DNA of 37,860 bases from the NCBI GenBank assembly GCA_947074115.1, contig CAMTOK010000009.1, positions 1-37,860 on the forward strand, in the 5' to 3' direction. Origin of the DNA: an uncultured Erysipelotrichaceae bacterium. Its GTDB lineage: Bacteria; Bacillota_I; Bacilli_A; Erysipelotrichales; Coprobacillaceae. Under the pieces are notes generated by a model. The model saw nothing but the letters and a program-made list of their open reading frames with translations. It did not search any database and had not been told where the DNA came from. The stretch's first letter is position 1; each line of letters opens with the position of its first letter. Positions 3,651 through 8,559 of this stretch are shown here, piece after piece. The translations under genes were made by a program, and so were the position numbers.

Positions 3651-4556
3651 ATGATTTATACATTAACATTAAATCCAGCATTAGATTATGTCATTCAGGT
3701 TCCTGAATTTGTTGAAGGAAAAGTAAACAGAATGACTCAAGAAGCAATATGTATAGGTGGTAAAGGAATAAATGTCTCTTTATTATTAGATTCATTAAGT
3801 ATGAAATCAACATGCTTAGGGTTTATTGGGGGATTTACAGGTCAAGAAATCAAGAGACAATTAGAAGTAAAAGAACATGTGAAAACAAAATTTATTGAAG
3901 TCAAAGATGGTTTAACAAGAATCAATGTTAAAATGACAAGTCATTTAGAAAGTGAAATGAATGGTATTGGACCACATATTCTTAGTAGTGATGTTGATGC
4001 ATTACTCAACCAATTGTCAAAAGTAAAAAAAGGAGACGTTCTTATACTTTCAGGAAGTGTTCCTTCAATGTTGCCACAGTCAATATATAAAGATATTATG
4101 GCAACACTTGATGGTGTTGATGTCGTTGTTGATACAACAGGTGACGCATTAAAAGAAGTATTAGAATTCCATCCGTTTTTAATTAAACCAAATCATCATG
4201 AACTTGCAGAGTTTTTTGATGTTAATTTATCTACAACAGATGATATTGTCTTTTATGCTCAAGAATTACAAAAACTAGGTGCAAGAAATGTATTGATTTC
4301 TATGGCAAAGGAAGGTTCAATTTTAGTGAGTGAAGAGGGTCAAGTCTACTTTCAATCCGTTTGCCAAGGAACGGTTGTTAATTCAGTAGGTGCTGGAGAC
4401 AGTATGGTTGCTGGATTTGTTGCTGGGTATTTAAAGGGATATGATTACGAACAAACACTCAAACTTGCGACTGCGACAGGTGGTGCAACAGCATTTAGCG
4501 AAGGAATAGCAGATTACAATACAATCATGTCATGCCTTAAAAACATCACAAAATAA
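3651..4556 (+). CDS. 1-phosphofructokinase family hexose-phosphate kinase (PfkB/ribokinase fold)
   Basis: This 301-residue cytoplasmic sugar-phosphate kinase is similar in length to FruK and LacC. It starts with MIYTLTLNPALDY, the hallmark of the FruK/LacC/PfkB branch. GGKGIN is at 36-41, and the anion-hole motif GAGDS at 247-251 supplies the catalytic base Asp250. The likely reaction is ATP-dependent phosphorylation of fructose 1-phosphate, but tagatose 6-phosphate kinase has the same signatures. It stands alone, with no fruR regulator or fructose PTS gene beside it, so the neighbours do not settle the substrate. It has its own promoter, a GGGGGAA ribosome site and a terminator. Confidence 0.9.
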   Translation: MIYTLTLNPALDYVIQVPEFVEGKVNRMTQEAICIGGKGINVSLLLDSLSMKSTCLGFIGGFTGQEIKRQLEVKEHVKTKFIEVKDGLTRINVKMTSHLESEMNGIGPHILSSDVDALLNQLSKVKKGDVLILSGSVPSMLPQSIYKDIMATLDGVDVVVDTTGDALKEVLEFHPFLIKPNHHELAEFFDVNLSTTDDIVFYAQELQKLGARNVLISMAKEGSILVSEEGQVYFQSVCQGTVVNSVGAGDSMVAGFVAGYLKGYDYEQTLKLATATGGATAFSEGIADYNTIMSCLKNITK

Positions 4557-4569
4557 TCATAATATAAAG

Positions 4570-4597
4570 AAAATGCCTTTAAATAGGGCATTTTTTT
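4570..4597 (+). terminator. Rho-independent terminator after the kinase gene
   Basis: AAAATGCC (4570-4577) pairs with GGCATTTT (4587-4594) and runs into a T-tract to 4597. Confidence 0.85.
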
Positions 4598-4649: not shown

Positions 4650-4658
4650 TGATATAAT
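4650..4658 (+). promoter_or_regulatory. Extended -10 promoter of the alpha-CTD/sigma4 gene
   Basis: TGATATAAT is a TGn extended -10 with a perfect TATAAT at 4653-4658. No good -35 lies at the right distance. The GGGG RBS and ATG at 4679 follow within about 20 bases, so the 5' leader is very short. Confidence 0.6.
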
Positions 4659-4678
4659 ATAAAAAAAGGGGTGAGTCT

Positions 4679-7405
4679 ATGTCTTCGTTTTATTATTCTG
4701 ATTCAATAAAGACACTCAACTTATCAAGGCGTTCACTAAACGCTCTTGAACGGACAGGAGTCAATACGATTCAAGATCTGTTATCATTATCTATGAGGGA
4801 CTTGTTAAAGATAAGAAATGTTGGGGAAAAAAGTCGTAACGAGATTATTAATACTATTGAATCATTTCAACAAGAGAATAATTTATTTAAGAAAGATACT
4901 GAAGTGGTTGTACCTTCAGTTAAAACATTTATAGGGGAAGATGGAAAAAAATATTACGATATTTCTATAGATGAAATGGCATTAAATATGAGAACATACA
5001 ATTGTTTAAAGAATGCTCAATTATGTTATTATTCAGAACTAAAAGAAAAAACTGCAGAAGAACTATCACAAATCAGAAGTATGGGGAAAAAGTGTTTAGA
5101 TGAAATAGATCATATCTTAACACATATTGAACTTCGTCAAGTGATGCACGGAGATAATGTGGAACTTGATCATGCTGAAGCTATCTGTTCATTATTATTT
5201 AGTGTTCTTAACGATATTTTAAATTTAGATCCAAATCAATTCTTTGAGAAAGTTTTACCTTTGTGCTTAGAAGTTTCATCTGATTTATCAGAAGAAGAAA
5301 CAATACTCAGCCAAGACCTTCTTAACTGCTGCTATCAAAACGAATATATACAAGAATTGTTTGGGAGTTATGTTTTAAAGATGATTCAAGAACATATTTA
5401 TGGTTTGTCATTAGAAAATATTTTTGAATATGTTCCATTAGAATTTAGAAACCAAAATTTCATTAAAATTGTTGTTAATCGTTTATTGCATAAAAAGTTA
5501 ATTCATAAAGATGAGCTTAGGTATTATGCTCTTTTCCCATCTTATAAAGATGAATTACAAAATTACTTAACACCTAGGGAGTATCTTATTCTCAATCGTA
5601 GAATTCATGGTGAAACGCTGGAAGGTGTTGGCCAACGCTATGAACTGACTCGTGAAAGAATACGTCAAATTGAACAGAGAGCGATTAAACGCTTAAATGA
5701 TACTAAGGTATGTTATAAAGAAGATATTTATCGAGATATTTATTTACGTTATCACATTACTTATACAGACTTTATGATTGCGATGAGCGATTCAAATGTA
5801 TATAATTACTTATCACTTCGTTACAGTCAAATACGTTCAAAATTAGCCGATTTAAAGCCAATAGGAGATATTGTTGAGGATGATGACATCCCGATGTCTA
5901 TTCGTAAGAAATTTGAAAGAGCTATTTATAAAGATTATGTCTTGTTAGATAAGGAGTACATTCCTTGTACGAGAAATGATTTAACTGAATACGTATTAAA
6001 ACATTACTCATTTGATGGCGTCACATTTGATGAATTTAAAAATCTCTACGCACAAGTTTTATCGTTTATTCATAGAGAAAATGATCCTTCATTAAATGTT
6101 ATAGATCGAGGCTATTTAAATAAATTGGCACTAAGTCATCATACACTGTGGAGATATGGTAAGAAATTTAGATATTATAATATTGCTTCATATGATTATA
6201 CAGAACTCTTAACGACTTTAAACCTTCATCAATATGATTGTGTTGAATACTCAACTTTGAAGTTCTTTAGACTCTATCCTGAATTGATGTTGTTCTATGA
6301 CATTAGGGATGAATACGAATTGCATAATCTATTAAAGAAAGTGTGCCTTGAAGAAGATTATCCTCATGTCACATTTAGAAGGATGCCTAATATTGAGTTT
6401 GGTCAGGCCAATCGTCATGAGCAAGTCTTTCATCTTTTAAAGATTCTAGCACCAATAACAAAGAATGATTTTTCATGTGAATATGAAAATGAATATGGTG
6501 TGAGTTCATGTACAGTCTTATCAAATTATATGGGAGACTTTAATCACTACTTAAATAATGGTTATTATGAAATTGATTCTCAACCAATTTCAGTAGATAT
6601 TAAAGAACAATTACGTATGAGATTAACAGGAGATTTTTATCTGCTTTCATCTATACAAGAAATATATAATGATTTAGATTCTGCGCCTCATCAAGATTTA
6701 AATTCAATAGTCTTAAGAGAATTAGGATATAAAGTTTATTCTAAATATATTATTAAGGATAACTATTCAACAGCGAGTGAATATTTTAATGCTGTATTAA
6801 TACAAGGAGATCACTTTGATTTAAAAGACTTTCCAACAGGAATGAAAGAAGTGGTTGCATTTATTAATCAATTGTATTATTTAAAATCACAATACCAAAT
6901 TGTTGAATATCTTCCAGAGAAATATATAAATATGAGGACGTTAGAACGTTATGGAATTACCATGGAAAGTATTAAAGACTTTCACTATGATGTTTACAAC
7001 ATGATTAAAGATGGTGAATATTTCACTTATCATTCGTTAAAAAAACAAGGGTATCACTCACCTTTAGAACATGAACAATTTGAAGATTGGTTCTATACAT
7101 CGCTCCTTATAGAACGTCGAGATTATTTCTCTCACCTAAAGATAGGTAAAAATAAGATTATCTATCATGGAAAGAAGAAGTTTTCCTTAGCAGATTTTGT
7201 TCACTATATTGTACAATCTCATCAAGATCAGGCGATTGCTTTAGATGATTTAATTTTAGTATTAAGAAATGATTATGGTTTACACATTAATATGTGGAAA
7301 CTAAAAGAATCACTAAAAAACAGTTCTATGTTTATTGACGCTGTTCATCAATATGTTTATGACAGCTATGATTCATATGCAAAACAAAAATCAAAAAGTT
7401 TATAA
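4679..7405 (+). CDS. Large protein with two RNAP alpha-CTD-like domains and a sigma region 4-like HTH
   Basis: This 908-residue soluble protein has no signal peptide or membrane segment. Residues 9-63 resemble the RNA polymerase alpha C-terminal domain, with RSLNAL at 18-23 and NVGEKS at 47-52 matching the DNA-binding RSxNCL and NLGKKS segments. Residues 95-152 repeat it, with RTYNCLK at 105-111 and SMGKK at 134-138. Residues 297-345 match sigma-70 region 4, with LTPREYLILNRR and then TRERIRQIEQ (324-333), whose Arg325, Glu326, Arg329 and Gln330 align with the -35-reading residues of sigma-70. I see no sigma region 2, so it cannot be a complete sigma factor. About 560 further residues are rich in Tyr, Asp and Leu, seem mainly helical, and match nothing I recognise. 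It is monocistronic, with its own promoter and terminator. A DNA-binding transcription regulator is inferred; the function is unknown. Confidence 0.85.
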   Translation: MSSFYYSDSIKTLNLSRRSLNALERTGVNTIQDLLSLSMRDLLKIRNVGEKSRNEIINTIESFQQENNLFKKDTEVVVPSVKTFIGEDGKKYYDISIDEMALNMRTYNCLKNAQLCYYSELKEKTAEELSQIRSMGKKCLDEIDHILTHIELRQVMHGDNVELDHAEAICSLLFSVLNDILNLDPNQFFEKVLPLCLEVSSDLSEEETILSQDLLNCCYQNEYIQELFGSYVLKMIQEHIYGLSLENIFEYVPLEFRNQNFIKIVVNRLLHKKLIHKDELRYYALFPSYKDELQNYLTPREYLILNRRIHGETLEGVGQRYELTRERIRQIEQRAIKRLNDTKVCYKEDIYRDIYLRYHITYTDFMIAMSDSNVYNYLSLRYSQIRSKLADLKPIGDIVEDDDIPMSIRKKFERAIYKDYVLLDKEYIPCTRNDLTEYVLKHYSFDGVTFDEFKNLYAQVLSFIHRENDPSLNVIDRGYLNKLALSHHTLWRYGKKFRYYNIASYDYTELLTTLNLHQYDCVEYSTLKFFRLYPELMLFYDIRDEYELHNLLKKVCLEEDYPHVTFRRMPNIEFGQANRHEQVFHLLKILAPITKNDFSCEYENEYGVSSCTVLSNYMGDFNHYLNNGYYEIDSQPISVDIKEQLRMRLTGDFYLLSSIQEIYNDLDSAPHQDLNSIVLRELGYKVYSKYIIKDNYSTASEYFNAVLIQGDHFDLKDFPTGMKEVVAFINQLYYLKSQYQIVEYLPEKYINMRTLERYGITMESIKDFHYDVYNMIKDGEYFTYHSLKKQGYHSPLEHEQFEDWFYTSLLIERRDYFSHLKIGKNKIIYHGKKKFSLADFVHYIVQSHQDQAIALDDLILVLRNDYGLHINMWKLKESLKNSSMFIDAVHQYVYDSYDSYAKQKSKSL

Positions 7406-7501: not shown

Positions 7502-7535
7502 AAAAACAAGCACTGCTTAAAGTGCTTGTTTGTTT
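7502..7535. terminator. Bidirectional terminator between convergent genes
   Basis: AACAAGCACT (7505-7514) pairs perfectly with AGTGCTTGTT (7521-7530). Read on the minus strand it ends in a five-T tract. On the plus strand the tail TTTGTTTA is weaker. It lies directly past the stop of the minus-strand membrane protein gene. Confidence 0.85.
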
Positions 7536-8559
7536 ACTTAAATTCTTGAATTAATAATTCTTGAGTATTTTGTGTGATTTCATTACCAAAGGATACTAAA
7601 GTCAATTGATCATTATTTGTGAAAATCATTAAAGTGAGCTGATCATTTAAAAAACCATATGTGACAAAATCTTGAGTGTACAAACTATCACAACTAATTT
7701 CACTAGGATTCTCTAAATAGAAGTTTAAAGCGTCTTGCACATCAGTATTGTTTTTTAGGTTGTATTGACGTAAATACATAACATCTTCATCACTGACTTC
7801 TAAATAAGTATAAGTTGTTTTAGAAAAGAATCCTTTTTGAATCTTTGCTTGTTTCGTTGATGAAACATTTTCATATATTTTAGATAATGACATATATGGG
7901 TATTGTGTTGTTAAAGTTGCATTAAGTGAATCTTCTGCAATTCCACCAACAAAGATAATTGTAAAGACTAACAATAAGGTTATAAAGAGTGAACGAATAT
8001 GCTTTAATAGAGGTTTTTTTGATTTGAAACGTAATAAAGAAATAAAATGACATAAGTAACGTAGTCCAAGTGTCATTAATATCGCAACGAATGCGATTTG
8101 AAATAAGAATGAACCATATGTAAGAAAATCATTTAAAGGATTGCGATCAATTATAAATAATGTGTATGCAAAACTTAGTGTTAAGTACATAAGAGCAAAC
8201 ATAGCATACTTAATTGTATCAAAATGATCGAATTGATACGTATAGTTTAAGTCATTTCTATGATTTGTTTTGCCTTCTTTGTAAAAAACGAATTTTCCTT
8301 TTTGATCTTTAAAGAGTGTGTATCCTGCGTCCTGATAACGCGATGCAAGCTCAAATCTCGCATCAGTCTTCTTAATACGTGATTTTCCAGATAAGTCGAT
8401 ACAAGCAACTTTAAATGAATATTTTTTGTCTGTTTTTTTAAAGAAAGTCAATCCAAGAAACTTTTTTGGTAGGTATCCTTCTTCTCCATAGTGATTATAA
8501 ATAGCCTCAATTTCTTGAGATTCATAAGGTTGAAAATTTAAATAACGAATAGGTAACAT
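7534..8559 (-). CDS. DUF2812-like membrane protein
   Basis: This 341-residue protein has a soluble N-terminal region of about 105 residues with tandem aromatic stretches (EEGYLPKKFLGLTFFKK, and then DAGYTLFKDQKGKFVFYK). That pattern resembles DUF2812 proteins. Three hydrophobic segments follow at about 113-135, 143-173 and 186-208. A C-terminal region of about 130 residues, probably extracytoplasmic, ends the protein. DUF2812 proteins often sit beside PadR-type regulators, but none is present here. The start is supported by an AAAGGCAGG ribosome site and by a consensus promoter upstream. The function is unknown, and the DUF2812 assignment is by pattern only. Confidence 0.7.
   Translation of the reverse strand: MLPIRYLNFQPYESQEIEAIYNHYGEEGYLPKKFLGLTFFKKTDKKYSFKVACIDLSGKSRIKKTDARFELASRYQDAGYTLFKDQKGKFVFYKEGKTNHRNDLNYTYQFDHFDTIKYAMFALMYLTLSFAYTLFIIDRNPLNDFLTYGSFLFQIAFVAILMTLGLRYLCHFISLLRFKSKKPLLKHIRSLFITLLLVFTIIFVGGIAEDSLNATLTTQYPYMSLSKIYENVSSTKQAKIQKGFFSKTTYTYLEVSDEDVMYLRQYNLKNNTDVQDALNFYLENPSEISCDSLYTQDFVTYGFLNDQLTLMIFTNNDQLTLVSFGNEITQNTQELLIQEFK

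Follow-up and report, generated by a model that had tools for sequence, protein, structure and literature searches.

The open reading frame at positions 4679-7405 on the forward strand of the window, by which the whole analysed stretch of 37,860 nucleotides is meant, raises the question of what a bacterium may do with a protein that carries the promoter-reading parts of RNA polymerase on one chain and has no sigma core. The frame begins with ATG, is intact and encodes 908 amino acids.

Domains and predicted structure

To begin with, two stretches of the protein matched RNA_pol_A_CTD (PF03118, E=2.2e-35, 120.6 bits, cut-off 23.8), and residues 297-339 matched Sigma70_r4 (PF04545, E=6e-9, 35.7 bits against a cut-off of 24.1). 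No Pfam match to sigma region 2 or 3 was found anywhere in the 908 residues, and residues 345-908 matched no curated Pfam family. A phmmer search against the PDB returned alpha-CTD matches for both copies, plus sigma region 4. In the first alpha-CTD, residues R18, N21, G49, K51, S52 and E55 correspond to R265, N268, G296, K298, S299 and E302 of the alpha subunit, and the second has R105, N108, C109, G136, K138 and E142. A true sigma factor was rejected, as region 4 is the only sigma region detected by Pfam, and so was an RNA polymerase alpha subunit, for which the rpoA equivalogs gave 97 of the 227.8 bits, in the CTD part only and with no alpha NTD. The features of the gene were as follows:

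4679-7405, + strand: coding sequence for two alpha-CTDs, sigma region 4 and a predicted tandem winged-helix array (908 aa; Pfam, AlphaFold2)
4697-4861, + strand: first alpha-CTD, residues 7-61 (Pfam PF03118, structure model, column counts)
4961-5131, + strand: second alpha-CTD, residues 95-151 (Pfam, PDB sequence match, column counts)
5411-5530, + strand: predicted winged helix just N-terminal of sigma region 4, residues 245-284 (from the secondary structure of the model)
5567-5695, + strand: sigma region 4, residues 297-339 (Pfam PF04545, E=6e-9)
5648-5671, + strand: -35 recognition helix TRERIRQI, residues 324-331 (column counts of 41 sequences)
5714-7402, + strand: family-specific tail, residues 346-908, about eight predicted tandem winged helices (served as the family profile)
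6299-6340, + strand: best-conserved stretch of the tail, DIRDEYELHNLLKK, residues 541-554 (alignment of 41 sequences)

An AlphaFold2 model of the 908-residue protein was built on a 41-row family alignment, with a mean pLDDT of 87.5 and a pTM of 0.59. The modelled alpha-CTDs superposed on 1z3e_B with an rmsd of 0.8 Å over 58 residues, a helix-turn-helix was modelled at residues 299-342, and the Foldseek matches of the model included 3n97, an alpha-CTD with sigma region 4 on UP/-35 DNA. Thus, the profile searches and the structure prediction, both of which the original prediction had named as its checks, bore out its two alpha-CTDs with Arg18/Asn21 and Arg105/Asn108 and its sigma region 4 with Arg325, Glu326, Arg329 and Gln330, in a protein devoid of region 2.

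The last 560 residues, to which no known fold had been assigned, are instead predicted to form winged helices. From residue 245 on, a helix-helix-helix-wing pattern is repeated about nine times in the secondary structure of the model, with sigma region 4 placed between the first winged-helix repeat and the remaining ones. The best Foldseek matches outside RNA polymerase include the multi-winged-helix proteins UFL1/DDRGK1, the SelB C-terminus, ESCRT-II and TFIIIC, none of which reaches E=0.001. Because of this repeating secondary structure and these matches, residues 346-908 are read as a predicted tandem array of about eight winged helices, with approximate repeat borders and uncertain placement of the domains relative to one another.

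Distribution of the family

The homologous tail of about 560 residues was used to define the family and, as a profile, to search for its members. The window protein has this tail, a sigma region 4 with the -35 residues and an alpha-CTD number within the 0-3 of the family; its tail is up to 43% identical to those of relatives in Clostridia (E to 6e-149) and aligns with the family over its full length. A scan of the genome-contig collection with the window protein alone found no relatives, and the tail alignment then gave 57 loci, mostly in Clostridia, with some in Bacilli, Mycoplasmatota, Spirochaetota, Melainabacteria and others. Furthermore, the tail profile found relatives in 17 of 395 Bacilli genomes and on one viral contig, other members lie on Enterococcus and Exiguobacterium plasmids, and Treponema is among the hosts of the 77 family loci. 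Sigma region 4 is present in 63 of 64 full-length members, and the alpha-CTD copies vary from none to three, usually two. The RefSeq label for relatives is "sigma factor-like helix-turn-helix DNA-binding protein". A phage origin of the window gene was considered and rejected; the phage collection gave alpha-CTD matches only, and BFVD held no viral protein with the complete architecture.

Some members differ in their setting. Five relatives (G426, G441, G460, G485 and G520) lie in genomes of 0.7-0.9 Mb in frames holding TGA codons, which fit the reading of TGA as tryptophan in mycoplasmas. In Exiguobacterium sp. s193 (L143:435-11257), three tandem paralogs of 837, 831 and 1224 aa come straight after dcm and vsr. 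Alpha-CTDs also occur in other proteins: the 489-aa product of L033:9805-11274 (G009), distinct from the family protein, has a single alpha-CTD at its centre and adjoins a 557-aa protein with apparently SWIM-zinc-finger-like sequence, and G016 and G025 hold similar alpha-CTD reading frames of about 495 aa.

Genes adjoining the family members

Neighbours were counted over 77 loci, using six-frame HMM searches for the partner genes. DNA-modification or defence genes adjoined the family gene at 51 of them: a ParB-like gene together with an SNF2 helicase at 28 loci and one of these two at 7, Ssp/type-4-BREX clusters at 7, AAA-RloB at 5 and Dcm/MutH at 4. The remaining loci had none of these partners (22, stand-alone) or too little flank (4). 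The commonest arrangement is therefore a three-gene operon encoding the family protein, a ParB/sulfiredoxin-fold protein and an SNF2 helicase. Foldseek matches for the model of the ParB-like partner (pLDDT 90) included ParB-N, Noc and sulfiredoxin (E 5e-3 to 0.3, probability 0.84-1.00), and the protein has the conserved motif DGRIIDGNRR. The helicase has a PbeA-like N-terminal nuclease domain in some loci (E=8e-71 in L090), and the helicase of the Ssp-type loci scores as PbeA itself (7e-247), accompanied by BrxP, SspB, SspC and SspA. Moreover, AAA_21 and RloB precede the family gene in L073-L077, and genes for MutH-family nucleases (PF02976) adjoin it in L070 and L122.

In four clusters with BrxP, SspB, SspC, SspA and PbeA (L134, L137, L139 and L141), the family gene lies directly upstream of PAPS reductase; in the Ssp/type-4-BREX-like cluster L135 it is frame-broken, and an extra reading frame lies between it and PAPS reductase. 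BspA-type leucine-rich-repeat, MoxR-like AAA and VWA-like genes adjoin family members in gut and rumen Clostridia (L113, L118, L124 and others).

The ParB-like gene was found in 8 of the 395 Bacilli genomes and adjoins a family gene in five of these eight (diverged in L079). Five genomes with the ParB-like gene gave no detected family protein; two of them have a diverged copy adjoining it, two appear from their sequences to hold Dcm- and nuclease-like reading frames in the place of the family protein, and the fifth is broken. At L162 and L163 (G186 and G240), the ParB/Srx-fold gene and an HKD-SNF2 helicase stand with a cytosine methyltransferase and an apparently Sau3AI/MutH-like reading frame, without the family protein, an arrangement whose gene content suggests that recognition or nuclease parts are interchangeable.

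These neighbours are what the original prediction had overlooked: its domain reading stood, while its list of roles (roadblock, decoy, mimic, nucleoid-type regulator) took no account of the company of DNA modification and restriction-type defence, and the nucleoid-type regulator on that list found no support. The association observed is with defence genes, from which we infer the defence function itself; a defence origin of the family is well supported. The family may also have a role outside defence, given the 22 of 77 loci without a defence partner; the stand-alone copies elsewhere have ordinary, unrelated housekeeping neighbours.

A different reading of these operons is that the family protein regulates the transcription of its own operon or of its neighbours, with sigma region 4 and the alpha-CTDs repressing the operon promoter in the manner of the small wHTH regulators of defence loci. 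Every domain of the protein is DNA-binding, the family gene is usually the first of the operon and stand-alone copies exist, all of which would suit a regulator. However, some 900 residues with a conserved winged-helix array far exceed what a local regulator needs, the protein is fused at its N-terminus to a MutH nuclease domain in L068, and the family gene follows the ParB-like gene in L117, L124 and L130, so that we regard this explanation as unlikely.

Comparison with known systems

With sigma-70 factors the window protein shares the region 4.2 helix-turn-helix and all the -35-contacting residues, whereas it has neither regions 1-3 nor -10 recognition and melting, and its region 4 is embedded in a winged-helix protein. 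With the CTD of the alpha subunit it shares the UP-element contact residues, in two copies, but it lacks the NTD of alpha and has lost Glu261, the position that contacts sigma; in the family the copy number is 0-3.

Among defence proteins, MzaA resembles the family in its large size, its association with defence and a sigma region 4 inside the chain; the family differs from it, with no GHKL/Z1 neighbours seen. Membership of MZA was rejected, as NCBIfam MzaA gave 33.9 bits against a cut-off of 800, a profile comparison with an MzaA-like protein aligned region 4 only, and the window neighbours do not match an MZA operon (MutL-like, Z1 and AIPR genes). A separate MZA-like locus with the same gene order was seen beside a type III R-M system at L037:3910-9534 (G039), where a GHKL ATPase comes after a 936-aa protein that has sigma region 4 at its centre and is predicted to contain many winged helices. 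PglW of type-2 BREX was also rejected (29.9 bits against a cut-off of 990, with only the alpha-CTD part matching). Its published description has several winged helices after an alpha-CTD-like domain (PMC12839542); it differs in having a NERD nuclease, kinases and iSTAND, and sigma region 4 is undescribed for it.

Several relatives lie inside PbeABCD or Ssp/type-4 BREX clusters, and the helicase partner has a PbeA-like N-terminus; no such genes occur near the window copy, and the published components of these systems do not include the family protein (PMC6459918, PMC10853773, PMC12839542). Similarly, some relatives adjoin or are fused to a MutH domain, as in Sau3AI/MutH-type modules with Dcm and Vsr, whereas the window protein lacks a nuclease domain and its gene adjoins no methyltransferase. 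Beyond shared domains, neither the family protein nor its ParB-like partner had a match at E<=1e-5 in PADLOC-DB 2.0.0 (2023), and literature searches for the alpha-CTD/sigma region 4/winged-helix architecture in defence found no description. Hence the modules are known and the system, as far as tested, is not among the known ones. The family operons are rated as multi-component, restriction-like defence, with a recognition protein that would be built from the promoter-reading parts of RNA polymerase.

The window copy and its missing partners

The window gene lies among genes for HtpG, a nitroreductase, PfkB, a hypothetical protein and a Na/Pi cotransporter. The hypothetical protein (7534-8559, 341 aa) has apparent hydrophobic stretches and no Pfam match, and its gene is conserved in relatives beside htpG, the nitroreductase and the Na/Pi cotransporter. 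In six relatives (G007, G022, G012, G021, G018 and G005), the nitroreductase gene is immediately followed by the counterpart of 7534-8559, at a site that holds neither pfkB nor the family gene, both of which lie between the two in the window. Direct repeats looked for within each insertion edge were not found. A scan for promoters over the 4679-7405 gene remained near background (35 sites vs. 27.5 expected). The surrounding features were as follows:

3651-4556, + strand: pfkB-type sugar kinase, accompanying the family gene at the site empty in six relatives
4567-4597, + strand: terminator-like hairpin closing pfkB (predicted from sequence)
4650-4658, + strand: extended -10 promoter-like TGATATAAT, some 20 bp upstream of the ATG and lacking a -35 match (read by eye; putative)
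4668-4675, + strand: good ribosome-binding site GGGGTGAG (read from sequence)
7504-7531, both strands: two-way terminator-like hairpin past the family gene (predicted from sequence)

Since a terminator-like hairpin ends pfkB, the family gene would form its own transcription unit. It does not belong to a three-gene operon, as the ParB/Srx-fold gene and the helicase are absent from both the window and the genome. No ParB-like gene was found in the window's genome (control genomes gave 6e-61 to 4e-117) and no close SNF2 helicase (best 1e-12 vs. 4e-126 to 5e-179 in the controls), and the window holds no remnants of partner genes. This genome is an assembly of 177 contigs, 95% complete, from which a partner could be missing. 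The family tree places the window copy in a clade supported by SH-aLRT values of 97-98. The clade is otherwise made up of three-gene operons, apart from L093, which stands alone, and L092, at a contig end with a transposase-like reading frame after the gene.

Another possibility is that the window protein has partners after all, which would be encoded in the 5% of the genome missing from the assembly or would be host nucleases or helicases that it recruits. Stand-alone copies are frequent and the tree has at least 15 changes between the partnered and stand-alone states, which would fit such an arrangement; against it, the SNF2 helicases of the genome are generic, a ParB-like partner is missing, and the other stand-alone copies keep unrelated housekeeping company. 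We therefore hold this to be improbable.

Residues under selection

Among the 41 aligned family members, the equivalents of alpha Arg265 and Asn268 are kept by 34 (R18) and 26 (N21) in the first alpha-CTD and by 29 (R105) and 24 (N108) in the second, and the first copy also keeps the G296 (38/41) and E302 (34/41) equivalents. The -35 contacts of region 4.2 are kept more widely: R325 and Q330 by 40 members each, E326 by 38 and R329 by 37. Judged from the alignment, the retention of these eight DNA-contact residues is far beyond chance. Alpha Glu261 is the residue that contacts sigma, and its equivalent is not conserved in the same 41 members. The mean entropy was lowest in region 4.2 of all the segments compared (1.38) and reached 2.36 in region 4.1. 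As the DNA contacts are conserved, the Glu261 position is not and region 4.2 is the least variable, selection holds the DNA-facing surfaces. In the tail, D541, Y546 and E547 of the DIRDEYELHNLLKK stretch are invariant and most of its other positions are at least 90% conserved. The suggestion that the protein could bind an UP element and a -35-like hexamer without a melting core is thus strengthened by this family-wide conservation of putative contacts, though the conserved residues of region 4.2 could instead serve a non-promoter sequence.

This pattern bears on the possibility of an RNA polymerase mimic or decoy, in which region 4 would dock on the beta flap and the alpha-CTDs would capture activators, so that transcription is shut down or redirected by an abortive effector. 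Both modules are genuine RNA polymerase parts, but variation is greater in region 4.1 than in region 4.2, the sigma-contacting Glu261 is lost and the conserved part is the DNA-facing side. Docking on the polymerase, which the original prediction had entertained for an alpha-CTD or sigma mimic, is weakened in consequence, and we consider a decoy quite unlikely.

Of the 58 positions that 85% or more of the other members share, the window protein retains all 58, its end branch on the tree is 0.85 and the codon usage of its gene is host-like (ameliorated). Because of the conserved positions and the host-like codon usage, the copy is probably functional rather than a remnant. That it survives as a functionless relic of a three-gene operon, as the absence of partners from the genome, the mostly operonic clade and the frame-broken copy of the relative G009 might indicate, appears very unlikely in view of an intact frame of 908 aa, no change at the 58 conserved columns over that branch, ameliorated codons, and a promoter-like site and terminators of its own. 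The copy has apparently lost, or never brought, its partners, and not recently, and it seems to be still under selection.

Proposed role

Taken together, family membership, the domains, the operon partners of the relatives, the absence of those partners here and the conserved residues incline us, by a little, to see in the window gene a solitary member of a family of DNA-recognition proteins that normally serve restriction-like operons against invaders. The two alpha-CTDs would grip an AT-rich minor groove and sigma region 4 would read a -35-like hexamer, so that promoter-like DNA could be bound without RNA polymerase. The winged-helix array may extend the DNA contact or sense the state of the DNA; in the operons, it would keep the other components in place on the target, these being the ParB/Srx-fold protein together with the (HKD-)SNF2 helicase, or else a nuclease of the MutH type. 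Self DNA would be marked by methylation or phosphorothioation, a link between modified self and the Dcm and phosphorothioation genes that is drawn from published systems (PMC6459918, PMC10853773, PMC12839542). Without partners, the window protein would act through occupancy: it would sit on UP/-35 elements and so keep RNA polymerase off them, with the promoters of incoming AT-rich DNA as plausible sites. Such a roadblock to transcription is probably the mechanism of the stand-alone copy, whose target and action we infer from the conserved domains.

More broadly, it is a tentative and rather doubtful proposal that a promoter-mimicking family serves immunity, directing a helicase or nuclease, together with a ParB/Srx-fold protein, to the promoter-like DNA of invaders when in operons and silencing such DNA when alone. 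The three-gene operon, including the copies on Enterococcus plasmids, is small enough for cloning and testing, and stand-alone copies like that of the window permit the recognition part to be studied without nucleases. If the proposal is true, bacteria would have split the promoter-reading parts (UP and -35) from the polymerase and built them into restriction-like defence complexes. Immunity would then be aimed at promoter sequence and not at a restriction site, and phage promoters would become the target, a feature that no phage easily loses.
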